DNA of 64,000 nucleotides from Denitrovibrio acetiphilus DSM 12809 (lineage in GTDB: Bacteria; Chrysiogenota; Deferribacteres; Deferribacterales; Geovibrionaceae). The translations under genes were made by a program, and so were the position numbers. The stretch lies in assembly GCF_000025725.1 (NCBI RefSeq), contig NC_013943.1:1674001-1738000 (forward strand), written 5' to 3'. Positions 1-15,575 of this stretch are shown one piece after another (the stretch's first letter is position 1; each line of letters opens with the position of its first letter). The notes beneath the pieces were generated by a model. The model searched no databases and was not told the DNA's origin. It saw nothing but the letters and a program-made list of their open reading frames with translations.

Positions 1-1066
1 TGCTGCTGTATCTGAAAAATACATTTTCAAACACAACAGATGAATCCTGTGGTTCTTTTGGGGTTTCACTGACAGACAGAACGGGAGAATTGAGTACTTC
101 ATTTATTCTGAAAGCCCCCGCCTGAGATTTTTTTATAAAATTATTCAGCCACATTAAGGGCATCATAGCATCAGCCATACCTGTACTCATCATAAGTGCC
201 GCTACAAATGCAGAGAACGACAAAGTTCCTGCCGATTTGAAATATATACCCGCAGCGGTTACAGCCAGCAAAGTAGGAATGGGGCTGAGTATGAGCAGAC
301 CTATCCTTGCAGGAATGCCCGTGGCATTTATCCACTCTTTCAGCCCTTTCTTATAAATATCCAAAGCGGTCTGATATCTCATAAAAGAGCTTTTACCATC
401 GTCAAATGTTCGTACCACAGGCATTGCCTGAACGAACTCTATGACGGCAGAATTTATCATCTCCTGCCCTTCTTCATATTTTTTTCGGTATGATGCGGCA
501 TCACGCATTACAAACCCCATCACAGTGAAACCGATAACCAGTACAATCGTACTGACAAGAGCTAGCCGCCAGTCAATTATAAACATCAACGCCATAGACG
601 CTACGGGCGCAGCTATCGTGCGTCCTATGAAAGGAGTGCTGTCCGCTACGAACGCATGCAGACTCATCACATCATCCACCATAACCTTTTTCAACGCACC
701 CGACCCTGTTGTTAAAATATACCCCATAGGAACCTTTGCTAAATGACCGGCTATTCTGGTACGAAGGATCTCTTCCAGAGCAAAAGCACCGTTGTGCGAA
801 ACTTTAAAAGCATAGGTTCTGAAAATAAAAGCGATTGCTGTCAGCAGTATGGTTAACCATACTGATTCCCACACTCCGAACCTAAAACCGATAAACTCTG
901 TCTCACCGCCGTTTACCAGCGCACCAACAGCCAGTGCCATAAAAAGCATGGCTCCTACAGCAGAAAATGCGCTGAGACCAGCAAGTGTTATACCTGCTTT
1001 GATTTCAAACATAACAGGAGCCATGATGCTCCACAGCCCCTGTTTCATAGTATTATTCTTTTTCAT
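1..1066 (-). CDS. ABC transporter, fused membrane/ATPase subunit of the siderophore-import (IrtA/YbtP-like) type, partial at window edge
   Basis: The reading frame is open from an ATG at 1066 to the left edge, about 355 codons, so the C-terminal ATPase domain lies outside. The translation has several hydrophobic segments in the first 300 residues, typical of the six-helix ABC exporter-type membrane domain. It ends with VFENVFFRYSS, the usual start of an ABC nucleotide-binding domain. The gene follows a TonB-dependent receptor with no gap: the receptor stop at 1073-1075 lies just upstream of this ATG. In yersiniabactin and mycobactin systems such exporter-fold proteins import ferric siderophore across the inner membrane, and the neighbours here (receptor, HemP, TonB, AraC regulator) support that role. 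The substrate is inferred. A second half-transporter may lie beyond the edge. There is no strong ribosome binding site, so translational coupling to the receptor is likely. Confidence 0.8.
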   Translation of the reverse strand, partial: MKKNNTMKQGLWSIMAPVMFEIKAGITLAGLSAFSAVGAMLFMALAVGALVNGGETEFIGFRFGVWESVWLTILLTAIAFIFRTYAFKVSHNGAFALEEILRTRIAGHLAKVPMGYILTTGSGALKKVMVDDVMSLHAFVADSTPFIGRTIAAPVASMALMFIIDWRLALVSTIVLVIGFTVMGFVMRDAASYRKKYEEGQEMINSAVIEFVQAMPVVRTFDDGKSSFMRYQTALDIYKKGLKEWINATGIPARIGLLILSPIPTLLAVTAAGIYFKSAGTLSFSAFVAALMMSTGMADAMMPLMWLNNFIKKSQAGAFRINEVLNSPVLSVSETPKEPQDSSVVFENVFFRYSS

Positions 1067-1072
1067 TTTGCA

Positions 1073-3259
1073 TCAGAAATAATATGCGGCGCCAACGCCA
1101 AGGATACGCCCTCTGGAAGGCATGCCAACGATAACATCCGCGCCATCCACCATAGATGCTCCGTAGTTCCAGCCATAGAGGTCATAAACTTTATCCAATA
1201 TGTTATCACCCCACACATAGACTTCTAAGTTTTCACTCATTACTCCTATGCGGAAATCAAGTTTGTTATAAGAGTCAAGTTCAAATGTGTTTGCAGGATC
1301 CCCTTCTCTGCTGCCGATATACCTGTTTGTCACAGTAGTAACAAGAGCAGGTGCTTTAAATCCCCAGAAAGGCTTCAGCGAAAGACTGTGAGCAATCGAA
1401 ACTGTTGCGTTCCACTCGGGAGAGTTTGGAATACTGTTTCCTTCCTTCGCACCTGAGGTTGAGCCGCCCGGCACAGTTTTGATCTCTGCATCGGTGTAGC
1501 CAAAACCTGCTGTGATGGTGAACCCGCCCCCCGGTTTAACAAAACCGCTGAACTCTGCACCTTTGCTCTCTGTATCAAAATTCTCCACGTCAGATACTCT
1601 ATCCATGTGGTTCCATACCATCACATGGTCATCTTTTATATCGTTATAAAAGAATGCAACGTTTAAGCCTGATTTACCATTCGGAGCTTCAAACTTTGCC
1701 CCCAGTTCAAAACTATCTATTTCAGCTTCGTCATATATAAGATCGTTATCGTATCCGTTTATAAACGCGTTTCCCCAGTCGTTATATCCTTTTGCCTTAT
1801 GCCCTCTGGCATAAGTAAGATAAACATTCGTATCCTCACGCACAGCATAGCTTACAGAAACTCTCCCTGTTCCATAGGATTCAGACATTTCATCAGAATC
1901 AGAGGCTGTTCTGATTGTGCTGGGGTTTGATGGATTAGCCGTCCAGTCTGTATCATACTCCTTTTTATCCCACGTATAACGCAAACCGCCGGTAAGTTTC
2001 AGTTTATCAGTTACAGGGTATGTAACCTCACCAAAAACGCCAATGTCTGTGGTTTCGAAAGTTTTATACAGATCAGCATTGTACCAACCAATACTGTAAA
2101 ACGTGTCGTAAGCATCAACATTATTCAGGTCTCTTTCAGACCTGTAATAGTTTGCTCCGGTAACCCAGAAGATATCACTTCCGGACTTTGAGCTTAAGCG
2201 CAATTCCTGACTAAAAGCCTTCTGTTCTAGCTCTCTGGTCATAGACCCTTCGGGTACGAATCCATAAAATTCTCTATATATCATCCCGTTATAGATATAC
2301 TGCTGCTGGTTTGCATCGGTGTGAACATACCCGGTAACAGAAGTAAAATCAAAAGCGCTGAATTCATGCTCGAAAATAAGAGTAAATCTATCAACACTCT
2401 TCTCAGTATCATAACTGTCTTTTGGAATATCAGTTTTCTGTTCGTCATCATACGGAGCAAGGATATCAGCTCCTGTCATGTTGTCTATATCTTCATGACC
2501 TATAGAAAACGTTACATCAGTTTTGTCTGTTGGTTCCCACAGCAGTGTAGCTCGGACAGCAAAGTTCCGAGGTTCTGTGATGGGTTCAGTAGAATTATAA
2601 TACTCGACCTGATTGTCATAGCCCGAATACTTCGCAGCCAGACGCATACTTACAGTTTTGGAAACAGGACCGCTTACAGCACCTTCTGTGAGAAACGTAT
2701 TTTCTGTCCCATACTCTCCTTTAAGATACCCTTCAAGATGTCTGGTAGGCTTCTTGGTTATAATATTAATCGCACCTGCTTCACTGTTTCTGCCCATCAG
2801 AGTACCTTGCGGACCTTTCAGGATCTCAACACGCTCTATGTCCATAATATTAAGTGTTGCTGATGCTACAGCCTGAGGTACACCATCTACATTGATAACA
2901 ACAGATGTGTCATCCATGCTAACTGATTCGAGGGAACCCACCCCTCTTATTCTTATATTCCGCGTATCAGAACCGCCATAGGTGTCAACTTCTATCCCCG
3001 GAGTCTGCCGCAAAGCGTCTTCCAGATTGGCAAGTCTGCGGTTTTCAAGTTCGTTTCCGCTTATCACACTCAGGCTGAAGGGAACGTCTTTTGCGGACTC
3101 TTCCGCCTTTCTGGCAGTCACTGTCGTAGACTGAAGTGTCTGCACTTTCTCCGCTTCCGCCACCCCTAAGCCTTCTTTCCCCTCCTGGGCAAAAATGGTG
3201 AAAGGTACGAGTAAAATTATCAACAAAAAGCTAGATCTGCTTAATGCACCAATATTCAT
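1073..3259 (-). CDS. TonB-dependent outer-membrane siderophore receptor
   Basis: About 728 residues, a normal length for the family. A signal peptide (hydrophobic stretch ending FTIFAQ) is followed by a plug domain with the typical RIRGVG and GPQGTLMGRN segments (roughly residues 100-165), then a long beta-barrel ending in a C-terminal aromatic residue (AAYYF), as outer-membrane proteins do. An in-frame ATG lies 15 bases upstream at 3274, but GGAGGA sits just before the ATG at 3259, so I place the start there. It should bind a ferric chelate at the cell surface and pass it to the periplasm using energy from the TonB complex encoded upstream. The ABC importer gene follows directly. Plug wording resembles FyuA-type receptors, but ligand identity cannot be read from sequence. 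Confidence 0.9.
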   Translation of the reverse strand: MNIGALSRSSFLLIILLVPFTIFAQEGKEGLGVAEAEKVQTLQSTTVTARKAEESAKDVPFSLSVISGNELENRRLANLEDALRQTPGIEVDTYGGSDTRNIRIRGVGSLESVSMDDTSVVINVDGVPQAVASATLNIMDIERVEILKGPQGTLMGRNSEAGAINIITKKPTRHLEGYLKGEYGTENTFLTEGAVSGPVSKTVSMRLAAKYSGYDNQVEYYNSTEPITEPRNFAVRATLLWEPTDKTDVTFSIGHEDIDNMTGADILAPYDDEQKTDIPKDSYDTEKSVDRFTLIFEHEFSAFDFTSVTGYVHTDANQQQYIYNGMIYREFYGFVPEGSMTRELEQKAFSQELRLSSKSGSDIFWVTGANYYRSERDLNNVDAYDTFYSIGWYNADLYKTFETTDIGVFGEVTYPVTDKLKLTGGLRYTWDKKEYDTDWTANPSNPSTIRTASDSDEMSESYGTGRVSVSYAVREDTNVYLTYARGHKAKGYNDWGNAFINGYDNDLIYDEAEIDSFELGAKFEAPNGKSGLNVAFFYNDIKDDHVMVWNHMDRVSDVENFDTESKGAEFSGFVKPGGGFTITAGFGYTDAEIKTVPGGSTSGAKEGNSIPNSPEWNATVSIAHSLSLKPFWGFKAPALVTTVTNRYIGSREGDPANTFELDSYNKLDFRIGVMSENLEVYVWGDNILDKVYDLYGWNYGASMVDGADVIVGMPSRGRILGVGAAYYF

Positions 3260-3321
3260 CTGTGAGTCCTCCATATTTTATAGCTGGCTACAGGCTGGTG
3301 CTTTGGCTGGCTTATTCGTTT

Positions 3322-3490: not shown

Positions 3491-4624
3491 TCAGTTAGCA
3501 TCAGCCATAAGACTGTTTACGGCATTAAGTCCGCTTTGAGCAGTTTTCCGGAAAGCAGGTATTGTCAGTGCCTTTTCGTATGCCGTCTTAACTGTATTCA
3601 GATCGTTTACATGCCATGCACATACAGCCAGAAGCATAAGGGAATCACCGTCCCTCTGTTCGGAATTTTTAAGAGTTTCCAATGCTCTGCTGTACTCTCC
3701 TGCCTGATACAAATACTTCCCTTTCAGTTTATAATACTTATCTCTGTTTTTGCCTGACTCAATAAGACCATCAGTTATCCTGACAGCATTTAAATAATCC
3801 CCGCCAATCGCATAATGTTCTGCCAGATGTATCAGCTCTTCCTCTGTTCTGCTTATTTTCGCAAGGGTTTCCGCTGCTCTGACAGGCGCACCTGCATAGC
3901 TGTATATGTCTGCGAGATTCATAATATCACCCCGCTTCGGAGATTCTATACTGTAAGCTGTTTCAATAGCCGAGGCGGCATTACTGAACTGCTCCATATT
4001 AAGGTAGACCTGTGCCGTCACCCGCCACATTTTTGCGTCTTGTGGAAACTTTTCAAGATAATCTCTCAGCAGCACAGATGCTGAACGCCATCGTTTCATC
4101 TCCATTTTCACCGTAACAGCGAGTTTAACCCATTCGGTTTCCGGTTCTTTATTCTTTGTCATCAGCTCTTCCAGCAGCCTGTCGGCTCCCTGCATATCCT
4201 CAATGAGATACAAAGAGACTGCGGCACGGAAAAGGTGCTCAGGATTCACTGTCATTCTATATAAACGATAAAAGTATTCATGAGCAGCAGAGTAATTTTT
4301 CAGCTCATATGCCGCCACAGCAGAGTTTCTGCACAGATCTTCATTCTCACTATATCTGCTTAAGCCTGCTGAAAATGCTGTATAGGCATCACGTACCCTC
4401 CCGTCTTTATAGTAAGCGTTCCCCAGTACAAGATAATAAAGACCTGCATCTTCGGAATTTGCCAACCTGTAGTCTTCCAGCTTAAGTATCGCTTCCGCAT
4501 ACTTATCCGCCCGCATCATCTGTTGTGCCTCATACAAAACTTTTGCGAGCTTCACAGGGAGCTTTTCTTCAGCTAAAGCGTAAACACTCCAGAACATCAT
4601 AAAAAAAACAATAATATATTTCAT
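3491..4624 (-). CDS. Periplasmic TPR protein of the TonB2-type cluster
   Basis: 377 residues with an N-terminal signal peptide (hydrophobic run ending YALAEE). The rest is a chain of tetratricopeptide-like helical pairs, for example the stretches with LVLGNAYYKDGRVRDAYTAF and YKLKGKYLYQAGEYSRALET. It starts 3 bases after the TonB stop codon, so the two are co-transcribed. Vibrio TonB2 clusters have the same order, with a TPR protein right after tonB2, where it contributes to iron uptake, probably by binding the cell wall or other TonB components. That role is carried over by synteny. No catalytic motif is visible. Confidence 0.82.
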   Translation of the reverse strand: MKYIIVFFMMFWSVYALAEEKLPVKLAKVLYEAQQMMRADKYAEAILKLEDYRLANSEDAGLYYLVLGNAYYKDGRVRDAYTAFSAGLSRYSENEDLCRNSAVAAYELKNYSAAHEYFYRLYRMTVNPEHLFRAAVSLYLIEDMQGADRLLEELMTKNKEPETEWVKLAVTVKMEMKRWRSASVLLRDYLEKFPQDAKMWRVTAQVYLNMEQFSNAASAIETAYSIESPKRGDIMNLADIYSYAGAPVRAAETLAKISRTEEELIHLAEHYAIGGDYLNAVRITDGLIESGKNRDKYYKLKGKYLYQAGEYSRALETLKNSEQRDGDSLMLLAVCAWHVNDLNTVKTAYEKALTIPAFRKTAQSGLNAVNSLMADAN

Positions 4625-4626
4625 AA

Positions 4627-5301
4627 CTACATCCTGAACTCAAAAGGTGCTACCACCCATGTATTCACAGGTTTACCGTCATATATCCCCGGTTTGAACC
4701 TCCAGCGAGCTATTGCGTTCCTCACTGCTTCGTCAAAGACGCCTTCAGGCTCAGAAGAAACGATCTGCATATCACTGACCTCTCCTGAACTTTTCACCAG
4801 AAATTTCAAAATGACTTTTCCGGTGACCTGTCTCCTCTTTGCCGTAAATGGATATACGGGGTCAGTCTTGTAAACAATAGAAGGCGGTGTATCAACCTCT
4901 CCTATATCGAAATTCAGCTTCACCCCTCCGGCAAAAGACCCGCCGCCCGCCGGTACACTGACAGCAACCCCGTCTGAAAGACTGGCATTTATATCAAACG
5001 ACAGATCAGGGAGTGAAACATCCAGCTTAGGTCTTGTCAGTTTATGAGCGGTATGTTTCAGGTTCATCTCCGGCAGTTTTTCAGGCTTCTTCTCTTCTTC
5101 CCTCTTTTTCTCTATCTCTTCATCCTGTCTTTTCATTGGCTTTTCCATGCTGAAACTGACAAAACTATCAATTATATCGCCGGGCTTCCCAGCCGTTGCA
5201 GCGGACAGAAAAGGGATTCCTATGAAAATCAGTAGATTTATCAGCACAGCCAGCACTACTGCGGAAAACAGGGTTATGCTGCCATTCAAATGCTTTTTCA
5301 T
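4627..5301 (-). CDS. tonB: TonB energy-transducing protein
   Basis: 224 residues: one N-terminal membrane helix (about residues 8-33), a charged Lys/Glu-rich spacer (residues 55-85) in place of the usual proline-rich one, and a canonical TonB C-terminal domain with DPVYPFTAKRRQVTGKVILKF and the ARWRFKPG motif near the end. It couples the proton motive force harvested by ExbB/ExbD to the outer-membrane receptor. It overlaps the exbD stop by one base and is followed 3 bases later by the TPR gene, so it is part of a tight operon. The short charged spacer resembles TonB2 proteins of vibrios. Confidence 0.92.
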   Translation of the reverse strand: MKKHLNGSITLFSAVVLAVLINLLIFIGIPFLSAATAGKPGDIIDSFVSFSMEKPMKRQDEEIEKKREEEKKPEKLPEMNLKHTAHKLTRPKLDVSLPDLSFDINASLSDGVAVSVPAGGGSFAGGVKLNFDIGEVDTPPSIVYKTDPVYPFTAKRRQVTGKVILKFLVKSSGEVSDMQIVSSEPEGVFDEAVRNAIARWRFKPGIYDGKPVNTWVVAPFEFRM

Positions 5302-5711
5302 TACTCTTTTCTCGCTGCTACGCTTATATTTTGCACACCTGCAAGACGACAGGCATCCAGAACATGTATAACCTCTCCGGTACGGCTGTTTTCATCTGCC
5401 GTTATAACAACGGACCCTTCTGGGGTTTCTGCCAGAAACCTTTCCATAAAACCTCGGACAGAGCGGATATCCGTTAATCTTCCATCCATATAAATCTGCC
5501 CCTCTTTGGTAACAGCAATTATCACATTTGTCTTTTCCTGTGTAACAGCACTGGCTGCTTTTGGTCTCTGGACATCCACACCGGATTCCTTGACAAAGCT
5601 TGTTGTTACTATAAAAAAGATCAGTAATATAAATATCATATCTATAAGGGGCGCCATATTTATCTCAACGGTACGCCCTCTTCTCAGGGAACTGTATTTT
5701 CTGTTTCTCAT
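5301..5711 (-). CDS. exbD: Biopolymer transporter ExbD
   Basis: 136 residues with the ExbD/TolR plan: a short cytoplasmic N-terminus, a single membrane helix preceded by NMAPLIDMIFILLIFFIVTT, and a periplasmic domain. The aspartate in PLIDMIF is the protonatable membrane residue of the family. It forms the proton-driven stator with ExbB and acts on TonB. The start codon overlaps the exbB stop in an ATGA arrangement, which suggests translational coupling. Confidence 0.93.
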   Translation of the reverse strand: MRNRKYSSLRRGRTVEINMAPLIDMIFILLIFFIVTTSFVKESGVDVQRPKAASAVTQEKTNVIIAVTKEGQIYMDGRLTDIRSVRGFMERFLAETPEGSVVITADENSRTGEVIHVLDACRLAGVQNISVAARKE

Positions 5712-6304
5712 TTCTCCAGCTCCTTTATCAGCATATGCCCAAAGAGATGTATTCTGTCCTGAGTAACAGAAGCTCTCCTGCGCAGAAAACTCCCCATAAC
5801 AAGCCCCGGCACCGCAACCACCAGCCCTGCCTGTGTCGTAACAAGGGCTACAGAAATCCCGGATGCCATCGCTCTCGGGTTGCCTGTTCCGTAGTATGAA
5901 ATAACGTTAAACGTATCTATCATCCCTGACACTGTCCCGAAAAGACCGAAAAGAGGCGCGGCAGATGCCAGTATCAACACAGTATTCACATGCTGAGAGA
6001 TACCGCTTGTCACAGTGCTAAGATAGCTGTTAAGCATCCTGTTGCGGTATTTCCCCGACAGAAATATGGACTCCCTCGCAAACTGCATTACATCCTTCTG
6101 CCATGCAGCACCTACGTGCGTACCCGCTCTGAAACCTTCCATGCACTCCTCAAAGCTGACTTCGCTCTTCCTTATCTGCACGAACTGAAATGCCTTCATA
6201 AATATCAGAAGCCACATAAACAGCGATGAAATCAGGAGAGCCGGCATAACGATACCACCGCTCTGGAAATGCTGAATAGTGTTCTCAAAGGTCTCAGACA
6301 GCAT
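5708..6304 (-). CDS. exbB: ExbB / TolQ / MotA family proton channel
   Basis: 198 residues. A membrane helix near residues 18-40 is followed by a cytoplasmic loop and two further helices. The conserved PLFGLFGTVSGMIDTF motif (around residues 115-131) and the GISVALVTTQAGLVVAVPGL helix define the MotA/TolQ/ExbB domain. Together with ExbD it forms the proton channel that powers TonB. The start overlaps the stop of the larger TtpC-like gene by one base. It is short and lacks the periplasmic N-terminal extension of enterobacterial ExbB, as in Vibrio ExbB2. Confidence 0.92.
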   Translation of the reverse strand: MLSETFENTIQHFQSGGIVMPALLISSLFMWLLIFMKAFQFVQIRKSEVSFEECMEGFRAGTHVGAAWQKDVMQFARESIFLSGKYRNRMLNSYLSTVTSGISQHVNTVLILASAAPLFGLFGTVSGMIDTFNVISYYGTGNPRAMASGISVALVTTQAGLVVAVPGLVMGSFLRRRASVTQDRIHLFGHMLIKELEK

Positions 6305-7683
6305 CAGAAGCTCCTTGTACTGTCTTTCTTAAGAAGGGCAACAGCAAAACGTGTCCCCTTCTCTTCTATGTCATTAAGTATCCTATCCACCCTGCGCTCA
6401 AGCATATGGTGGAAAAGCATAACCGGAATTGCAACGGCAAGCCCTAGCTGTGTTGTAACAAGAGCCTCGGATATCCCCCCTGACATCATACGGGGATCAC
6501 CTGTACCAAAGATTGTGAGGATATTAAATGTGTTTATCATTCCCGTAACTGTCCCCAAAAGCCCCAGAAGGGGCGCAACGGCAGCTAGTATGTTCAGAGT
6601 GGGCAGAAACCTTTCCATCCTCGGCAGCTCACGAAGTATCGCTTCCTGCATGGCGTTTTCTATAACTTCCTGAGTTTCACCTATATAGCCCATTGTGCTT
6701 TTAAGTATTCTACATGTCGGAAAGGCAGAGTTTTCTGCACAAAACTTATCACAGCCCTCCCAGTCGCTCCTTTCTGCGAACTCCATTATCATGTCCATCC
6801 TTTTACCGGATGTAGATTTTATCCGGCTGAGTACAAAAGCTCTCTCCAGTATGAGAATAAGAGCAATAAGCCCCACACCAAGAATAGGATAAACAAGAAT
6901 CCCGCCAGCCTTGATTGTGGATAAAAAGGATGCTCCGCCATCTTCGAACTGCTTGAACATAAGCCCGCCGGAAAAGTCCAGCGGAAACACCTTCGCCTTC
7001 TTCAATGCGTTCTCGGCAGATGAGGGGAGCTTACCGCTTAATGCCAGCAGTTTATCCCCCTGCTCGTTGGGCTTCAGCAGCCCGTACCTGTTGTCATTTT
7101 TAAAATAAGTAACAAACCGCCCCAAGCGTATTATCTCAGCACTTTCAATGCTTCCGTCAGGAGCAATAACATCCCCTTCATAGGTAACCACTTCTCCTGA
7201 AGCCGACATCTCGTGAAAGTAAATATCCACAAGTTTTCTTATGTTTGCTATACCCGGAAACCTGTCGTCATCCAGCATAGTCTGAACCTCAGCAATCCTT
7301 TCGGGTCTGGCTGCCGTAACGGGGTTGGCATGAATCATCTCATCCGCTTCTTTTGCAGAGGCTCTCACAGCCCCTTCCAAAGCTTTTATTTCATCCTGCC
7401 TGCTTGTCAGCTCTTCTGAAAGTTTATTCTCCACATCCAGCAGTTTTTCAAATTCACTGCGTTTCGCTTTGTATTCCCTCTCCAGAATAGACACTTCTGC
7501 TTTTATACTTTTAAGACTCGCCTTTGATTCCTTCTGCTGTTGATTAATCCTCTCCGAAAACTGAACATTTTCACTTTGAACAGCTTTTATATTCTCCTTC
7601 ATCTTTTCCGCAGGTGTCCCCTGCGCGAAAACGAAGGAAGGGAGCGCTATCAGAACGAATAAAAGAATTCTGCTATTTGACAT
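6304..7683 (-). CDS. TtpC-like protein: coiled coil fused to a MotA/TolQ/ExbB domain
   Basis: 459 residues in two parts. After a signal peptide (ending SFVFAQ) residues 25-125 form a predicted coiled coil rich in Lys, Glu and Gln. The C-terminal third carries a complete ExbB-like domain with PLLGLLGTVTGMINTF and GISEALVTTQLGLAVAIPV. In Vibrio the equivalent protein, TtpC, is a fourth essential member of the TonB2 complex, and the order DUF3450-TtpC-ExbB-ExbD-TonB-TPR is the same here. The long periplasmic part probably spans towards the outer membrane or peptidoglycan. The start overlaps the DUF3450 stop by 11 bases. Confidence 0.88.
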   Translation of the reverse strand: MSNSRILLFVLIALPSFVFAQGTPAEKMKENIKAVQSENVQFSERINQQQKESKASLKSIKAEVSILEREYKAKRSEFEKLLDVENKLSEELTSRQDEIKALEGAVRASAKEADEMIHANPVTAARPERIAEVQTMLDDDRFPGIANIRKLVDIYFHEMSASGEVVTYEGDVIAPDGSIESAEIIRLGRFVTYFKNDNRYGLLKPNEQGDKLLALSGKLPSSAENALKKAKVFPLDFSGGLMFKQFEDGGASFLSTIKAGGILVYPILGVGLIALILILERAFVLSRIKSTSGKRMDMIMEFAERSDWEGCDKFCAENSAFPTCRILKSTMGYIGETQEVIENAMQEAILRELPRMERFLPTLNILAAVAPLLGLLGTVTGMINTFNILTIFGTGDPRMMSGGISEALVTTQLGLAVAIPVMLFHHMLERRVDRILNDIEEKGTRFAVALLKKDSTRSF

Positions 7684-8434
7684 TCTGCACCCCTTTTGCA
7701 GACACAGGCAGATAGATAACTTCCATCACCCTCTTTCTGTCTGCGATTTCAACAGCTTTTACCAGCTCAGACTTATATTTTTCTTCCATATCAATCCATT
7801 TTTGTTCGTTATATGAGTAATACCCGTAACGCTTTTTATCCGGTGTCATATAGTAATAACCTAATCTGCCGAACCGGATCACCTCAGCGGTGAGCATACT
7901 GCCGTCTATCTCCAGCTCCGTTACTCTGCTTTCAATACTTTTGCCGTACTCTGACTCAACCTGAAGAGCCTCCAGCACACGCCTGAGCTTCTCACCTGCT
8001 GACAATTTATAATCAGCAAGAGAGGTTCGGAGCATATTCAGCCTTGCACGCCGCTCCTCCTCGAGAAATGGTATGTCCTCTGCAACAAAGCCGTTTAATC
8101 TGTCCACTGTCTCATCAAGATAAGGCTCAAGCTCTTCGGCAATCTTAGCCAGTTCATCTTTCTTCCGCTTAAGTTCTTCGATATTTTCCCTGATAGTAAC
8201 GATATACCTTTCATATTGCTCTATACGTTTCTCCAGCCATACCTTCTGACTATTCATCTCCCTGATCTTTTCTTCATTTCCTGCTTTCTCACCTTGAAAT
8301 TTAACATTCTTGCTGTTCAGCTCTGACTGTTTATCAACTTCACTTTTGAAAGTCTTATTAAGGTTCGTCAGTTCTGCCGCAAAGCTCCCGGTTACCGCGA
8401 AAATTGTTAAAAATAATACAGTTATCAGTTTCAT
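7673..8434 (-). CDS. DUF3450-family periplasmic coiled-coil protein
   Basis: 253 residues with a signal peptide (LFLTIFAVTGSFAA) and a long charged coiled coil covering about residues 25-130. A small C-terminal domain has LEIDGSMLTAEVIRFGRLGYYYMTPD, closely paralleled in the middle of the next protein (VIAPDGSIESAEIIRLGRFVTYFKND), which suggests the two share a periplasmic module. DUF3450 proteins open TonB2-type clusters in marine gammaproteobacteria, and their role is not well defined. As first gene of the run it sits directly below a Fur-box-like site and a direct-repeat operator, so it marks the start of an iron-regulated operon of at least nine genes. Confidence 0.85.
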   Translation of the reverse strand: MKLITVLFLTIFAVTGSFAAELTNLNKTFKSEVDKQSELNSKNVKFQGEKAGNEEKIREMNSQKVWLEKRIEQYERYIVTIRENIEELKRKKDELAKIAEELEPYLDETVDRLNGFVAEDIPFLEEERRARLNMLRTSLADYKLSAGEKLRRVLEALQVESEYGKSIESRVTELEIDGSMLTAEVIRFGRLGYYYMTPDKKRYGYYSYNEQKWIDMEEKYKSELVKAVEIADRKRVMEVIYLPVSAKGVQNVK

Positions 8435-8462: not shown

Positions 8463-8481
8463 GATAATGAGAATCATTATA
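8463..8481. promoter_or_regulatory. Fur-box-like operator upstream of the TonB operon
   Basis: The sequence GATAATGAGAATCATTATA matches the classical 19-bp Fur consensus (GATAATGATAATCATTATC) at 17 of 19 positions. It lies 29 bases before the DUF3450 start, where a promoter is expected. Iron-loaded Fur should repress the operon here. Confidence 0.85.
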
Positions 8482-8500
8482 CATATTTACAATATGTTTA

Positions 8501-8528
8501 ATACCCGATAACGGATAATTTATACCCG
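8501..8528. promoter_or_regulatory. Direct-repeat operator, copy 1 (probable AraC-family site)
   Basis: On the minus strand CGGGTAT occurs twice with a 21-bp period, separated by an AT-rich spacer containing TTATCCGTTATC. The same arrangement occurs at 12915-12942 before the RND operon. Two heptamers spaced by two helical turns on one DNA face is the usual binding pattern of AraC-family activators, and such a regulator is encoded at 13125. This copy lies just upstream of the Fur-like site, as expected for an activator. Confidence 0.7.
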
Positions 8529-8535
8529 CATATGT

Positions 8536-9753
8536 TCAAAAACTGTATTTAATCTCAGTATAGATGTGATCGTTGTTCCTGAACTGACCGTAGGCACTGT
8601 CCTTTTCACCATAGAGAGCCATAGCTCCGAAATTAAATGTGACGGCATCACCATACTTATATTCGCAATAAGTCTCGAAAGTTCCGCTTTTATCGTTCAG
8701 GTAATGAAATCCACGAAAACCCGCCTTAATATCCCCGCGAAAGTATTTATCATAAGCCTCATAGGTCACGCCGTACGTCTCTTCTTCAGCGTTATCTATA
8801 AAGAACTGGATATTTAAGTACCCCTCGTCATCGAAATTTCTGTCAAACCCCATGACGCCAATAATGTAATCATGCGCATAAATGTCACTCTTTTTATAGG
8901 CAAGCTCGCCCCTCCATGTACTCTTTTCGAGCCCTTTCGCAAAATTAAAACCATATGCTGTCAACCTTTCGTACCCCGGAACGAGCATATTGTCCTTCTG
9001 TCTGAAAACGGCATCGTCAGCGTATCCGTTAAAATAAAGTATGGAAAAATCCCACCCATTTGCTGTGGTAATAAGCCTGAAAGCTGCCTCTGGGGAATCC
9101 GGCTCATCTTCATTCGTTATTTGAAATGAGCTTCGTAATTCTCTCAGATATGAATATTCCCAGGGACTTTCATCTTCCGGCAGTTCATTTACTGCAGCAG
9201 ACGGGATTATGACCACCTCTGCAATGAACCTGTCTGCCGTATAGACTGAGTTCAGCAGCAGGACAGGCAGCCGTGCATCAGATCTCGCACCCGCAACAGG
9301 GTTAAGGTGATCTTTCGGATTTATAAGATCCATGGGGTTTATGCCGTCCCCCGCCCCCCACCGAAGCATCTTCATCCCTGCATCAATGTTCCACCTCACG
9401 CCGCCGTAGCCAAGGTATGCTTCATACACATCAGCTTTCGCAGCAGTTCCATTCCACTCCTCTGGTGCATTGTCGTATGAGGCATATGCAGAACCATAAA
9501 ATTTGTATTTTCCTATTTCATGATTATATTCACCAAAAGCTTTCCCCCTGTTATTCAGGTATTCTCCTGAATCCCATGCATATTTAGCAGTGTATTCCAC
9601 ATATCCGCCGAATTTGTAATGTCTGTCATCAGAAGCTGAAAGTAACTCAGCACCCATGTCAAACCCTGCCAGCGGATCAATGCCAACAGGGTCTGCCCAT
9701 GCCTTCAGGAGAAAGGTGAAGAAGATAAGTATGGAGAGTGCTTTTCTGTGCAC
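8536..9753 (-). CDS. DUF1302-like outer-membrane beta-barrel protein
   Basis: 405 residues with a signal peptide (FTFLLKAWAD) and many alternating aromatic strands, ending YTEIKYSF, the C-terminal pattern of outer-membrane barrels. The segment RWGAGDGINPMDLINPKDHLNP (around residues 132-153) is characteristic of the DUF1302 family, whose members are often encoded next to RND exporters and LolA- or DUF1329-type periplasmic proteins. That is the case here: the start is 3 bases from the LolA-like stop codon. It is likely the outer-membrane part of a lipid or siderophore export/transport pathway. The substrate is unknown. Confidence 0.72.
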   Translation of the reverse strand: MHRKALSILIFFTFLLKAWADPVGIDPLAGFDMGAELLSASDDRHYKFGGYVEYTAKYAWDSGEYLNNRGKAFGEYNHEIGKYKFYGSAYASYDNAPEEWNGTAAKADVYEAYLGYGGVRWNIDAGMKMLRWGAGDGINPMDLINPKDHLNPVAGARSDARLPVLLLNSVYTADRFIAEVVIIPSAAVNELPEDESPWEYSYLRELRSSFQITNEDEPDSPEAAFRLITTANGWDFSILYFNGYADDAVFRQKDNMLVPGYERLTAYGFNFAKGLEKSTWRGELAYKKSDIYAHDYIIGVMGFDRNFDDEGYLNIQFFIDNAEEETYGVTYEAYDKYFRGDIKAGFRGFHYLNDKSGTFETYCEYKYGDAVTFNFGAMALYGEKDSAYGQFRNNDHIYTEIKYSF

Positions 9754-9755
9754 GA

Positions 9756-10517
9756 TTATCTCTTCAGGTTACTTTGTTCAAAAACAGTATCAGGTATCTC
9801 TTCGTTATATCTGATACCACTCCTTTCAAGATATGTCTGAGTCTCTTCTCTTGGTGTTTCCATCAAAACTTTTGTATAAGTAGTAATGCCGCTGATAGTT
9901 TCGAAGCCTCCGTATGTAGCTTCTTTCAGCAGTCTGCCTCCTTTGTCATAGTATTCTGTTTTCAACTGCTGGAATATCTCTGGGTGCACCCACACAACTC
10001 TTCTGCTGTAGCTGGTATCATTTTTCTTAACAGGCTCGCTTTCCACAACATAACAGCTGACTCCGGCAAAATCTTTTCGTCCCAACAGCTTATGCACGTC
10101 ATCATCAACTTCACGCTTCTGTATATCTTCATTAGCAAAGTCAGAACGCATAAAAGCACCTTTTTTACCTCCGCCAGATATCCTGCGAACGAGACTTTCC
10201 GCAGGGAGATACATCCACATGTCATCTTCTCGCTCTATATCTTCGTAACTCCATGTAAGGTACATTGTGTTCCGTACATCCGCCGGCTGTTCAAATTTAA
10301 TAAGTGTTTTTTCATCTGCGCCATATTTTTTCCTGTGATTGATCATCTTGCGTATAAGCTGCTGCTTCCCTCTTTTTATAACCATGGCAATGTCCATTAC
10401 AGATGTTTCTGAAGCATCGTTATCATCAACCTTCAGCATTATATCCCGCCCTGTAATATCCTCTGCCATCAGCGGAAGAGCGGACATCACCAAAAGTATT
10501 ATTAAAAGTTTTTTCAT
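9756..10517 (-). CDS. LolA-like outer-membrane lipoprotein-sorting protein
   Basis: 253 residues with a signal peptide (LLVMSALPLMAED). The body (RKMINHRKKYGADEKTLIKF, then DDMWMYLPAESLVRRISGG) matches the LolA/LolB-fold proteins annotated as outer membrane lipoprotein-sorting proteins that accompany MMPL/RND exporters. The unclosed barrel fold carries a hydrophobic ligand across the periplasm. It sits 4 bases after the RND gene and just before the barrel gene, giving inner-membrane pump, periplasmic carrier and outer-membrane barrel in one operon. It is not the housekeeping LolA. Confidence 0.8.
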   Translation of the reverse strand: MKKLLIILLVMSALPLMAEDITGRDIMLKVDDNDASETSVMDIAMVIKRGKQQLIRKMINHRKKYGADEKTLIKFEQPADVRNTMYLTWSYEDIEREDDMWMYLPAESLVRRISGGGKKGAFMRSDFANEDIQKREVDDDVHKLLGRKDFAGVSCYVVESEPVKKNDTSYSRRVVWVHPEIFQQLKTEYYDKGGRLLKEATYGGFETISGITTYTKVLMETPREETQTYLERSGIRYNEEIPDTVFEQSNLKR

Positions 10518-10521
10518 TCGT

Positions 10522-12858
10522 TTATCTCCTCTTTTTACCCATAGGTTTCAGTATCATTATAAGAGCTGGTGCAAGGAAGAAATCGGCTATCAATGCCCAA
10601 CTGAACGCCCAGCCCATCATAAAGCCATTCTTCACATATCCTGTCAGCTGAGAAAGCATGAAAGGAGCGAATCCTAAAGCAAGCACCATCGTTGAAAACA
10701 CTATCGGTCTGCCTACTGTCATATATGTCTTTTTCAGGGCATCTTCATAGCCGCTACCCATATCAAATTCACGTTTAAAACGGGTAAAAAAATGTATGGT
10801 ATCATCAACCGCAACACCTATTATCACAGGAGCAAAGCTCATGAGTATTACATCAACATAAGCACCTGCAAGCCCCAACAGACCAAGGGATATCATTACC
10901 GGAAACACATTAGGTACAAGGCTGATAATCCCAAGCAGAGGTGAACGCATCAGCAGAAGCATTATGATGCCCACTGCTATCATCGCAGCGATAAAACTGT
11001 TCCTTTGCCCCTCACCCAGAATATCGTTCAGACGAATGTACCTGTACATACTCCCGGAGGTCAGTACACTTACTTCATCTCCGAAAATCTCTTCCGCTCT
11101 CATTTCTGCATATTCTTTTATCTTTTTAAGCTCGTAGGTTGAAAGGGATTTTGTTTTGACAGTGACTCTTGCTTTATCTGATAAAAACGTGACCATTTTA
11201 TCCATCTCATCTCCACCTGATGTTTCATACATAAACAGGTACTGAGATACTGCGGAATCTGCACCTGGGATCTCATAATAGTCCATATTGTTATTGTGAA
11301 GAGCCTTGCGCATTTTCTTGATCACACTGGTAATACTGGAGACTTTTGTAACGTCCCCGTATGACTCAACATCCATATGAAATCTGTCCAGCTTCTTCAT
11401 AAAATCGGATGTTTTTATACCGTTATCACGACCGGTATCCAGCATAAACTCTAGTGAGAGAACACCGCCCATGTTAGCATCTATATAGTCCAGGCTGTCA
11501 CGAAACGGATTGCCCTGCTTGATAAGCTTCATTGTGTTTGATTCGACTTTAACAAGAGTCAGACCATACACAGACATACCTACCAGAAAAACAAACACAA
11601 CAACAATCTTCCATGGATGCCCCGTTGTTATTTTGAATATGCGGTAAAGTATTTTGTCAAAGATATCGTTCCGGTGCTCCGTTCCCCCTCCTGTGACGAT
11701 GCCTTCTCTGCCGAATGAAAATATCGAAGGAACCAGCATAACAGTTGCCACCATTGCAAAAAAGACACCAAGGGCAACATAAAGCCCCATCTCTCTGAAA
11801 GGCTGAACATGGGTTGTCAGAAATGACAGGAAACCAACCATTGTCGTAATTGTCGTGAGCAGTATTGCCCTTCCTGTTATGCCTAAACCTCTCTTCAGGC
11901 TTTCACGTCTGCCAAACCCGCTATCTGTGTAATCATGAAATGCAGAGATATAGTGCATAGAGTCAGCTATGCCGACGCATATCAGTATTGTGGGCAATGC
12001 CATTGTCAGAAAATTCACCTTGAACCCCATCAGGGGTATCGCACCCATTGTCCAGAACACCGGCAGGACAACAACGACCAGAGGGAGGATAACACCTCTG
12101 AACCCTCTGCCGACCCATGCCAATAAAGCAAACATTACTATCACGGTCATCATAAAAAACTTTTTGCCGTCCTGAGCAACAAGCTTGTCGTACTTATAAG
12201 ACATAGCCGGACCGCCAGCCGCCAAAATATCAAGATCAGCATATCTGTCCGACTCCAACAGCTGATAAAGGGGCTCTGCCACTGAATATCTTGGGTTTCT
12301 GTCTTCACTGTCCAGCCCATAGTGGTAAAGCTCTATATGCATCGCAAGAAGGTTTTTACCCCTGTTCAGAAAAGCATTAACGTAGGACGGCTCGGTAAGA
12401 GCCATGTCGAGAAACGCGTTAATCCTATCCTGAGAATCTGGGATTGGATCCATGAAACCACCGACATCCAGACCTTCTGAAGTTGATTCTATCCATTCAA
12501 CATTCCCAAGCCATGTTACCTTTTTAACATAAGGGACTTCAGTCTCGATTTCATACATCAAATCCTGATATTTCCTAAGCATCTCAGGGGTAAATCTGCC
12601 GTTAGCATCAGCCTTAAGGAAAAGACTGAGGAACTCATCGTTACCAAATGCCTCCTCGAACTGCTCCATAATGACAACGGATTCATCACCTTCTACAAAC
12701 CAGATATCTGAGGAATTATCAAAAGTCAGATTTTTCATACCAGACACGAATAATAGGGTTATAAATACAACTGCTGCCAGTACAAACCAGCGAAATCTTA
12801 CAACCAGTCCCGCAAGACCGCTGAACCACTCAGAAATTTTTATATAGTTCAGTTTCAT
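10522..12858 (-). CDS. RND/MMPL-family exporter
   Basis: 778 residues with the duplicated RND plan: a membrane helix at residues 20-42, a periplasmic domain, a five-helix bundle, and then the same again in the second half (helix near 415-435, periplasmic loop, C-terminal bundle). Visible family motifs include GIADSMHYISAFHD in the first bundle and GVAVDDTIHFFTRFKRE in the second, which is the sterol-sensing/MMPL pattern with proton-relay aspartates. With the LolA-like and DUF1302-like genes it forms a three-gene operon. A Fur-like site and a repeat operator upstream, and the adjacent AraC regulator, tie it to iron. Export of a siderophore or of an outer-membrane lipid are both possible. Confidence 0.82.
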   Translation of the reverse strand: MKLNYIKISEWFSGLAGLVVRFRWFVLAAVVFITLLFVSGMKNLTFDNSSDIWFVEGDESVVIMEQFEEAFGNDEFLSLFLKADANGRFTPEMLRKYQDLMYEIETEVPYVKKVTWLGNVEWIESTSEGLDVGGFMDPIPDSQDRINAFLDMALTEPSYVNAFLNRGKNLLAMHIELYHYGLDSEDRNPRYSVAEPLYQLLESDRYADLDILAAGGPAMSYKYDKLVAQDGKKFFMMTVIVMFALLAWVGRGFRGVILPLVVVVLPVFWTMGAIPLMGFKVNFLTMALPTILICVGIADSMHYISAFHDYTDSGFGRRESLKRGLGITGRAILLTTITTMVGFLSFLTTHVQPFREMGLYVALGVFFAMVATVMLVPSIFSFGREGIVTGGGTEHRNDIFDKILYRIFKITTGHPWKIVVVFVFLVGMSVYGLTLVKVESNTMKLIKQGNPFRDSLDYIDANMGGVLSLEFMLDTGRDNGIKTSDFMKKLDRFHMDVESYGDVTKVSSITSVIKKMRKALHNNNMDYYEIPGADSAVSQYLFMYETSGGDEMDKMVTFLSDKARVTVKTKSLSTYELKKIKEYAEMRAEEIFGDEVSVLTSGSMYRYIRLNDILGEGQRNSFIAAMIAVGIIMLLLMRSPLLGIISLVPNVFPVMISLGLLGLAGAYVDVILMSFAPVIIGVAVDDTIHFFTRFKREFDMGSGYEDALKKTYMTVGRPIVFSTMVLALGFAPFMLSQLTGYVKNGFMMGWAFSWALIADFFLAPALIMILKPMGKKRR

Positions 12859-12914
12859 AGAGAAACTCCTTATTCATTGCTGTTTAACTATTTAGAACTT
12901 TTAATGAAAGGTTT

Positions 12915-12942
12915 CTGCCCGATAATGGATAATAAATACCCG
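12915..12942. promoter_or_regulatory. Direct-repeat operator, copy 2 (probable AraC-family site)
   Basis: The minus strand has CGGGTAT and CGGGCAG with a 21-bp period and the spacer TTATTATCCATTAT, closely matching the element at 8501-8528. It lies 57 bases upstream of the RND start codon, a position similar to copy 1 before its operon. Confidence 0.68.
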
Positions 12943-13009
12943 TTTTTTGTAATCAGTGACGTTATCTATTCTATTTTTGCTTGCCAAACCCTCTGTCAGT
13001 CAATATAAT

Positions 13010-13028
13010 GATACTGAAAATCATTATC
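13010..13028. promoter_or_regulatory. Fur-box-like operator between the RND operon and the AraC gene
   Basis: GATACTGAAAATCATTATC matches the 19-bp Fur consensus at 17 of 19 positions. It is 97 bases before the AraC-type start and 152 bases before the divergent RND start, so it may serve either or both. Confidence 0.75.
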
Positions 13029-13124: not shown

Positions 13125-14165
13125 ATGAGCAAACCAAAAGCTCCAATCAGAATGTCTATGGATAAAGACTTTGCAACATATAAAATTAAGAATAGCGACG
13201 GATCTTATACCGAGACAACCATAGGATGCCCGAAACAGGAAATGGATGTTATGAGCCGCTACACAGAAAGCATTGAAATACAAACAGGGCTTGTCCTAAA
13301 CATAATTGATATCCCCGCCGATGTCGAACTCAGCACCGAATTTGAATATCTGGAGAGCCCCTTATATATTGGATGTTCATTACAGTGTGATTATGAAATG
13401 GATTTTTTCAAAGATGGAGAACTCCTGCGGAAGGAATACACCAAGGGAGCAAAATTCTTCATCTCCAAAACATCCAACATCAGCGGACATGTTATAAAAA
13501 AGTCAACAACAAATGTTCAGGGGCTCAGCCTGTCATTTGACAACCGTTTAGCAAAATTGCTTTTCGGCAGCAGCCTGCTCTACCTTAAGGATAAATATAG
13601 ACCTTACTTCGAACAGAACTCTGATTTCCTTCTGGATATAACAGAAGTGTCACCTCTTTTGAAAGCTGTGGCAAAATCTATTATATTTTGCCAGTATTCC
13701 GAGCCCCGCAGAAGCTTATTTATTAAAGCAAAGGCTTACGAGATTTTAAACTATGCGTTCTCTGAGCACCTTATGGCAAACATCTCATCAAACAAATCTG
13801 TCTTACAGCCGAATGAAATAAAAAAAATGATGGATATCCGGCAGTATATCTCCAGCCACATAGAAACTCCGCCAAGTCTGCATGAATTATCACGCTTTTC
13901 CGGAATCAACGACTTTAAGCTCAAAGCTGGTTTTAAAGAGATGTTCGGCACAACAATATATGGCTATATACAGTCTGAAAAAATGTCAAAAGCAAAACAG
14001 ATGCTTGAAACAGGTAATTACAGTGTCAGCGAGGTTGCATGGGACATAGGCTATACAAACGTAAGTCATTTTATCACTGCATTTAAAAAGAATTACAAAG
14101 TAACACCGGGACAACTGCTCTCGCATATCAAAAGCAATATCACACAATTTAAAACGATACAGTAA
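13125..14165 (+). CDS. AraC-family regulator, PchR/YbtA-like
   Basis: 346 residues. The C-terminal 100 residues form a double helix-turn-helix AraC domain: SLHELSRFSGINDFKLKAGF for the first and NYSVSEVAWDIGYTNVSHFI then FKKNYKVTPGQLL for the second. The N-terminal part has no cupin motif I can recognise and resembles the ligand domain of siderophore-sensing regulators such as PchR. GGAG lies 8 bases before the ATG. It is divergent from the RND operon and has a Fur-like site upstream. I infer that it senses a ferric siderophore and activates both minus-strand operons through the CGGGTAT repeats. Confidence 0.85.
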   Translation: MSKPKAPIRMSMDKDFATYKIKNSDGSYTETTIGCPKQEMDVMSRYTESIEIQTGLVLNIIDIPADVELSTEFEYLESPLYIGCSLQCDYEMDFFKDGELLRKEYTKGAKFFISKTSNISGHVIKKSTTNVQGLSLSFDNRLAKLLFGSSLLYLKDKYRPYFEQNSDFLLDITEVSPLLKAVAKSIIFCQYSEPRRSLFIKAKAYEILNYAFSEHLMANISSNKSVLQPNEIKKMMDIRQYISSHIETPPSLHELSRFSGINDFKLKAGFKEMFGTTIYGYIQSEKMSKAKQMLETGNYSVSEVAWDIGYTNVSHFITAFKKNYKVTPGQLLSHIKSNITQFKTIQ

Positions 14166-14345: not shown

Positions 14346-15575
14346 ATGCAAACAAAAGAGCGCAAAAAACTCTGTATCGCAATGATGGGCTTACCCGCCA
14401 GAGGCAAATCCACCCACGCCAAGAAAATCCTTGAGAATCTCTCTAAAGAAAACCTTAATGTCAGAATTTTCAACAACGGTGACTTGCGGCGTAAGTATAT
14501 AAAGGAAAATACAGCTTCTTTTGAGTTCTATAATCCGGATAACCATAAGGCAGTTAAGATCAGAGAAAATATTGCTTTAGTAAATATCCGTGACGCCAGA
14601 GATTTTCTTAACGGCATAGGGCATATAGCTATTATTGACGCTGCTAATGTCACGAGCAACAGAAGGCAGACTATCATTGAGGAAATGTCCGACTACAACA
14701 TTCTTTTTATTGAGTGTGTTAACGAACAGGAAGACTTTCTGAAAATCTGCATCGACACCAAAACAGAACTTCTGGAATTCAGCCATTTACCCAAAGAAGA
14801 AGCTACACAAAACTTTCTGAAACGTATCGAATATTATAAGTCCAGATATGATAATCTCACCGATGAGCCCAATTATATTGTAATCGATTCACTTAACAAC
14901 AAAATTATCAGAGAAAAAGATGCGGGCATCCCCTATTATCACCTTATCAGAGACATTCTGGTTTCAGGCTGGATCCATAATCTTTATCTGGTTCGTCACG
15001 GGCAAACTTATTTCAACCTTGATAACCGCATCGGTGGTGATTCAGAGCTCACTGAACGTGGGATAAGACAAGGTGCGGATCTTGCAAAACATTTCAGAAA
15101 CACTGATATCCACTATATTTTTACCAGCACTAAAAAGCGGACAATGGCGATTGCCTATGAGATAAAAAAGGAAATTCCGGATGTTGAAATCGTCCCGTTT
15201 GAAGAGTTTGACGAAATTAATACAGGTGATTGTGACTCCATAACTTATGACGAACTCAGATTGAATTTTCCTGAACTGTATGAAGCCAGATCAAAAGATA
15301 AATATAACTTCACCTACCCTAATGGTGAAAGTTACAGAACAATGAGGGAGAGGGTTCAGTTTGGGCTTAAAAAAGCACTGTTTCTCAGTGGCGGTGCAGA
15401 GAATATTGTAATTATAGGTCATCGCGGCGTTAACCGGATTATCCTATCTCTGTTCGAGTTCAGAGATGTGGAGGATGTTCCATATATCTATATCCCGCAG
15501 GATAAATATTTCCAGATCACAGCAACACAATATAAAAAGCTGATCGAAATGAAGAAATTTACTGAATTCGATTAA
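14346..15575 (+). CDS. Bifunctional 6-phosphofructo-2-kinase / fructose-2,6-bisphosphatase-like protein
   Basis: 409 residues with two domains. Residues 1-210 are a P-loop kinase of the PFK-2 type, with Walker A GLPARGKST at 15-23 and NGDLRRKYI following as in eukaryotic enzymes. Residues 213-409 are a histidine phosphatase with LVRHGQT (catalytic His218), the acidic residues of EFDEINTGDCD, and a second histidine in IIGHRG (His359). This is the architecture of the enzyme that makes and degrades fructose 2,6-bisphosphate in eukaryotes. Bacterial homologues exist but their physiology is little studied. AAGGTG precedes the start. The gene stands alone between the AraC gene and the tRNA-Pro insertion. 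Confidence 0.85.
   Translation: MQTKERKKLCIAMMGLPARGKSTHAKKILENLSKENLNVRIFNNGDLRRKYIKENTASFEFYNPDNHKAVKIRENIALVNIRDARDFLNGIGHIAIIDAANVTSNRRQTIIEEMSDYNILFIECVNEQEDFLKICIDTKTELLEFSHLPKEEATQNFLKRIEYYKSRYDNLTDEPNYIVIDSLNNKIIREKDAGIPYYHLIRDILVSGWIHNLYLVRHGQTYFNLDNRIGGDSELTERGIRQGADLAKHFRNTDIHYIFTSTKKRTMAIAYEIKKEIPDVEIVPFEEFDEINTGDCDSITYDELRLNFPELYEARSKDKYNFTYPNGESYRTMRERVQFGLKKALFLSGGAENIVIIGHRGVNRIILSLFEFRDVEDVPYIYIPQDKYFQITATQYKKLIEMKKFTEFD

Follow-up and report, generated by a model that had tools for sequence, protein, structure and literature searches.

Our analysis points to two neighboring iron-related operons that share a 28-bp element, most likely the binding site of the AraC-type regulator encoded beside them. 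The operons lie in a 64-kb stretch of DNA, here called the window, which spans positions 1,674,001 to 1,738,000 of a genome made up of a single 3,222,077-bp contig. The operator, its conservation and geometry, and the linkage of the genes were established by computation. We consider it likely that the complete circuit has the elements as AraC operators, Fur acting on the AraC gene and the exb operon, and AraC together with a siderophore acting on the uptake and RND operons. The original prediction of an operator shared by two operons and read by the adjacent regulator is supported by sequence and comparative evidence.

Coordinates of the genes and predicted regulatory features in the window
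Feature	Position	Strand	Remarks
YbtP-like ABC half-transporter	1..1051	-	crosses the window edge
TonB-dependent siderophore-type receptor	1073..3274	-	
hemP small ORF, 49 aa	3322..3471	-	PF10636, E=7.5e-16; unlisted; lies between the TPR and receptor genes
TPR protein	3491..4624	-	
TonB	4627..5301	-	
ExbD	5301..5711	-	
ExbB	5708..6304	-	
MotA/ExbB protein with DUF3450 N terminus (TtpC-like)	6304..7683	-	
DUF3450 protein	7673..8434	-	E=1.3e-74; operon 1, gene 1
Fur box 1, GATAATGAGAATCATTATA	8463..8481	+	17/19; overlaps the exb -10
Predicted -10 (TATAAT) of the exb operon	8476..8481	-	19 nt past element 1; no recognizable -35
Element 1, predicted AraC-type operator, CGGGTATAAATTATCCGTTATCGGGTAT	8501..8528	-	before the exb/TonB/receptor/YbtPQ operon
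Predicted outer-membrane beta-barrel protein	8536..9753	-	first listed start codon GTG
LolA-like periplasmic protein	9756..10517	-	
RND/MMPL-family transporter	10522..12858	-	first gene of the RND operon
Element 2, predicted AraC-type operator, CGGGTATTTATTATCCATTATCGGGCAG	12915..12942	-	before the RND operon
AraC promoter, TTGCCA-17-TATAAT	12981..13009	+	11/12, sigma-70-like; divergent from RND
Fur box 2, GATACTGAAAATCATTATC	13010..13028	+	17/19; abuts the -10 of the AraC promoter
AraC/XylS-family regulator, cupin-like N-terminal domain	13125..14165	+	proposed binder of both elements

On the minus strand, the RND-LolA-barrel genes (12858 to 8536), from which the AraC-family gene is divergent, are followed by the operon that runs from the DUF3450 gene to the receptor (8434 to 1073). 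The first description of the latter was incomplete, as the operon continues past the window edge on the same strand throughout, where the YbtP-like gene is followed by a YbtQ-like gene, an RhtX/FptX-like MFS gene, and a second MFS gene. Headed by element 1, operon 1 therefore has the order DUF3450-ExbB-ExbB-ExbD-TonB-TPR-hemP-receptor-YbtP-YbtQ-MFS-MFS, and the four genes downstream of the receptor make it a complete siderophore-uptake cassette. The window YbtP-like protein is 63% identical to its orthologue in the related genome G024, whose nearest solved homologue is YbtP itself (6p6i chain A, E=1.6e-161). The MFS gene would work like an RhtX/FptX permease; the second MFS protein of G024 scored 132 against a cut-off of 356 in the corresponding model (TIGR02718, E=2.6e-38), below the cut-off and tied with AmpG. 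Searches for an NRPS condensation domain and for an NIS synthetase came up empty, both in this genome and in the relatives with the system. Synthesis of a siderophore by either of these two routes is therefore unlikely here, and xenosiderophores are probably what the system takes up.

The two elements are as originally described with respect to their likeness, position, and common orientation, lying on the minus strand before each operon at 66 nt (element 1, to 8434) and 56 nt (element 2, to 12858) from the start codon. Element 1 has the structure CGGGTAT-AAATTATCCGTTAT-CGGGTAT and element 2 the structure CGGGTAT-TTATTATCCATTAT-CGGGCAG, with 23 of 28 bases identical; when both intergenic regions were shuffled 2,000 times with dinucleotides preserved, the best shared 28-mer had 22 of 28, a comparison that does not correct for common descent. 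Searched with up to three mismatches, the 28-mer pattern matched only these two elements in the whole 3.22-Mb genome, and the control gave 0 matches. The genome-wide heptamer scan that had been suggested is not specific by itself: the bare pair with N14 and two mismatches gave 154 matches versus 119 for a reversed-pattern control. The CGGGYAK-N14-CGGGYAK scan was consequently dropped as a specific test, being too loose, and the inner ATTATCC block counts as much for specificity as do the heptamers.

Further evidence comes from relatives, which include two genomes recorded as Deferribacterales/Deferribacteraceae. Expectation-maximization motif discovery was run on 11 upstream regions of the targets of AraC homologues, a set that excluded the window, included the receptor of the paralogous AraC locus in the same genome, and was trimmed of the conserved HTH coding sequence of AraC genes. 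It recovered the 28-mer, in a single register, at a log-likelihood of 150.7 versus a mean of 76.5 (sd 3.7, maximum 86.4) for shuffles, and the window elements scored 21.1 and 27.0 under that motif. A position model from which the window sites had been left out placed element 2 first (26.6) and element 1 second (20.8) in the 64 kb, with the next match at 10.5; the top score in 60 random 64-kb windows was 20.5. We also scanned 12 genomes with a sequence-only covariance model, with no more than 150 candidates scored in each genome, which means that a weak site could be missed. Among the matches listed for this genome, three sites had E<=10, all before TonB or receptor/RND genes, the third preceding the receptor of the paralogous AraC locus at 1,005 kb. 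As all three belonged to the training set, the scan adds here only that no other site in the genome scores close to theirs. It also picked up sites outside the training set, 60-odd bases ahead of the YbtP-like operons in three relatives (G024, G026, and G028) and, in G026, ahead of a receptor as well; receptors 55 to 58% identical to that of the window carry the element in relatives. No element was detected at the Desulfobacterota loci, whose AraC proteins have diverged further.

The shared element and the gene linkage in relatives support the placement of the RND-LolA-barrel operon in the iron/siderophore regulon. In G024, this operon is divergent from exbB-exbD-tonB, with an element before each, in a cluster with AraC, receptor, two MFS, and ABC genes, and in G021 the genes form one run, RND-LolA-barrel-receptor-ABC-ABC-MFS-MFS, in which RND and the receptor are each preceded by an element. 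A YbtPQ-like ABC adjoins the RND-LolA-barrel genes of this subfamily in all seven testable loci (LolA identity of at least 50% and enough flank; Desulfobacterota, a Pseudomonadales genome, and two Deferribacterales), compared with none of six loci of distant homologues (LolA identity of 25 to 34%). The close RND homologues often adjoin receptor and AraC genes, too. No adaptor or TolC gene was found in the RND operon. The label DUF1302 given to the barrel protein earlier does not apply to the window protein, which has no Pfam match to this family (PF06980), but it does apply to its G021 orthologue (26.7 versus a cut-off of 23.2). A profile search of the barrel protein found no solved relative; its structural model matches porins, and the low confidence of that model (pLDDT 56) means that these matches say "outer-membrane barrel" and no more.

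As to what this operon transports, the RND-LolA-barrel set may carry siderophore that is iron-free or harmful back out of the cell, and RND-type siderophore exporters are known elsewhere, namely, MmpL4/5 (PMC12803245) and ApeX (PMC5596346). The other reading, to which we give a chance somewhat short of even, is that the operon moves lipids for envelope remodeling under iron stress instead of a siderophore. It draws on the MMPL type of the RND protein, its weak similarity to the hopanoid transporter HpnN (112.6 versus a cut-off of 751.85; the HAE3 score was 220.2 versus 351.9, both below the curated cut-offs), and its LolA-like partner, but it does not readily account for the constant company of YbtPQ-like genes around close homologues or for the MMPL/RND siderophore exporters of other bacteria. 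More speculative, and in our judgment rather doubtful, is the broader proposal that the RND-LolA-barrel set represents an unrecognized trans-envelope route of siderophore recycling or efflux, standard in YbtPQ-type xenosiderophore cassettes of Deferribacterales, Desulfobacterota, and some Pseudomonadales and induced, like uptake, by AraC and siderophore here and in relatives. Such a route would consist of an inner-membrane RND pump, a soluble LolA-like carrier, and an outer-membrane barrel.

With respect to the mode of regulation, conservation of the element falls into three blocks about 10 bp apart (GNNTATT, ATCC[CG]T, and CRGGTAG), and a -10-like hexamer lies 19 to 22 nt downstream (0 of 2,000 shuffles). 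No consensus promoter was detected at exb, the -10 downstream of element 2 is weak, and the last bases of the element fall where a -35 box would lie. This spacing is that expected of AraC-type activator geometry, as judged from sequence. At E. coli araI1-I2, AraC binds direct-repeat half-sites with a 21-bp period, the promoter-proximal half overlapping the -35, and AraC and other activators that overlap the -35 act from such positions. Since the element covers the -35 position upstream of the -10, activation is the likeliest mode by analogy; the overlap of the downstream heptamer with the -35 position likewise suggests that the regulator probably acts as an activator at both promoters, neither of which has a good -35. 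It would contact heptamer 1, the ATCC block, and heptamer 2 (CRGGTAG consensus), one helical turn apart.

The regulator itself has a C-terminal AraC/XylS domain with two HTH units (HTH_18, E=3.3e-17, plus fold matches) and a separate N-terminal domain predicted as a cupin-like barrel (pLDDT about 80), whose model matches the arabinose-binding domain of AraC (2arc, E=3e-4). The closest folds having both domains are Rns and ToxT, and the NCBIfam RhrA model gave 24 bits against a cut-off of 500. Its gene adjoins siderophore receptor and transport genes, an arrangement also seen outside the family in Synechococcus, Azospirillum, and Shinella (but not in Hymenobacter), and a ferric siderophore is the presumed effector. 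An improbable variant keeps the element as the operator of this AraC protein but has it mainly repress, or both repress and activate, in response to a non-siderophore effector such as heme, a copper chelate, or a lipid. The hemP gene within operon 1, the fatty acids bound by Rns and ToxT, the reported responsiveness of YbtA to a copper-siderophore complex (PMC8725597), and the report that PchR acts both ways (PMC7600106) would fit such a variant; however, the receptor, YbtPQ-like, and FptX-like genes are of the siderophore type, and a site upstream of the -10 and over the -35 is the usual place of an activator rather than of a simple repressor.

The involvement of Fur that had been proposed is supported by sequence and by comparison, in a different arrangement. 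Matches of 17/19 are expected 0.01 times in the window and gave 0 genome-wide control matches, and the genome has several Fur-family genes. A Fur match had been placed near each element: both boxes exist, but box 1 sits at the exb -10, whereas box 2 is part of the AraC promoter and lies some 67 bp upstream of element 2. Direct repression of both operons by Fur, as first suggested, is thus not supported, for the RND promoter has no Fur box of at least 15/19, nor do the RND and receptor promoters of relatives; the lone match upstream of the RND gene of G024 is the divergent exb box. Before AraC genes, boxes at this threshold occur in G024 (18), G026 (15), G028 (15), and the paralogue in this genome (16), and none was found in the 300 bp searched in G021. 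Two exb operons, those of the window and of G024 (15/19), carry one. As the RND promoter lacks its own box, Fur would reach the RND operon mainly through AraC, and the best circuit on present sequence evidence would have Fur act on AraC and exb and AraC act on exb and RND.

In such a circuit, Fur with iron would directly repress the AraC gene (box at -10/+1) and the exb operon (box over the -10), and the RND operon, having no box, would follow through AraC. Iron shortage would lead to AraC being made. A usable ferric siderophore inside the cell would then probably be bound by the regulator, and the two together would turn on the TonB/ExbBD energizer, the receptor, the YbtPQ-like ABC pair, and the FptX-like MFS permeases, as well as the RND-LolA-barrel operon.

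We infer that the adjacent AraC protein reads the elements from adjacency and from conservation: AraC homologues in the same family adjoin receptor and/or RND-LolA-barrel genes, and the AraC genes of relatives lie beside their targets, with DNA-binding domains 42 to 70% identical and N-terminal halves 11 to 37% identical. It is quite improbable that another regulator, for example, the paralogous AraC protein encoded at 1005 kb (37% identical), reads them and that the adjacent one controls something else. The paralogue does have a related site of its own before its receptor, but the first heptamer there is ACAGCAC instead of CGGGTAT, and in relatives the site accompanies the neighboring AraC gene at most loci. 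That the shared sequence is a functionless product of chance or of a recently duplicated promoter segment, as two regions 4.4 kb apart in one locus and a bare heptamer pattern that is not rare might suggest, is rejected on comparative grounds, since the motif was discovered without the window, ranks first and second under an independent model, precedes the corresponding genes in other genera of this family, and has flanks that are poorly conserved across loci.

The circuit with AraC as activator would work like the PchR and YbtA systems. As with PchR of Pseudomonas aeruginosa, which responds to ferric pyochelin under Fur, an AraC-family regulator lies beside receptor genes, and the placement is alike, with an activator site (the PchR box) before receptor and transport operons (PMC8477383) and an FptX-type permease in the regulon. 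In contrast to the PchR system, no siderophore synthesis genes of the NRPS or NIS kind were found here, and the regulon also takes in a TonB system of the DUF3450 type as well as the RND-LolA-barrel operon. The yersiniabactin regulator YbtA is similar in that YbtPQ are the nearest solved relatives of the ABC genes, a Fur box lies at the -10 of the regulator gene, and repeats serve as regulator sites (PMC11225919, PMC8725597), whereas the present system shows no such biosynthesis genes and has another gene order and the accessory RND-LolA-barrel operon. E. coli AraC shares the direct repeats with a 21-bp period over the -35, the cupin-type N-terminal domain, and the two-HTH C-terminal domain, but its target genes and ligand differ. 

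The RND-LolA-barrel operon has parallels of its own. TetR-ABC-ABC-MMPL-LolA operons of Bacteroidetes are induced by low iron up to about 136-fold in P. gingivalis and more in P. intermedia (PMC10434189); in described gene content, they resemble the present system in their ABC pair, MMPL transporter, and lipoprotein-sorting (LolA) protein, but they have TetR instead of AraC and no receptor in the operon as described. In Castellaniella, AmeABCD comprises DUF1302, LolA/DUF1329, and RND proteins as a trans-envelope set (PMC6394551), a make-up resembling that of the present operon, but one that serves monoterpene metabolism and not iron. The type of circuit is already known from PchR and YbtA, and the RND-LolA-barrel operon as part of a siderophore cassette is the newer piece: promoter elements and cross-phylum linkage tie operons of unknown substrate to siderophore uptake. 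Our literature search found no AraC-type siderophore regulator circuit for this phylum, for which the newly defined operator and its regulon now offer one that is specific enough to test. Should the RND set export spent siderophore, this would explain how non-producers dispose of the carrier after iron removal, and the low-iron MMPL/LolA operons of Bacteroidetes (PMC10434189) could be read likewise.

Some further observations concern these loci and their surroundings. At G022:C1:2235824-2235847 (L093), a sequence in which CGGGTAG is repeated fits the element model well, with no AraC or receptor gene seen nearby. The paralogous AraC-receptor locus (C1:996000-1020000; L051, L080) carries a related element and a Fur box, together with ECF-type (Trep_Strep, CbiQ, ABC) and ABC half-transporter genes, and then a second DUF3450-ExbB-ExbD-TonB cluster. 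Two Mutator-family transposases, 98.5% identical and in opposite orientation, flank the whole iron locus on both sides (window 15701-16918 and genome C1:1660277-1661494, about -13723 to -12506 in window coordinates), and the locus could have moved, or be able to move, as a unit. Finally, positions 14346-15575 of the window encode a bifunctional 6-phosphofructo-2-kinase/histidine-phosphatase protein of a kind best known from eukaryotes.
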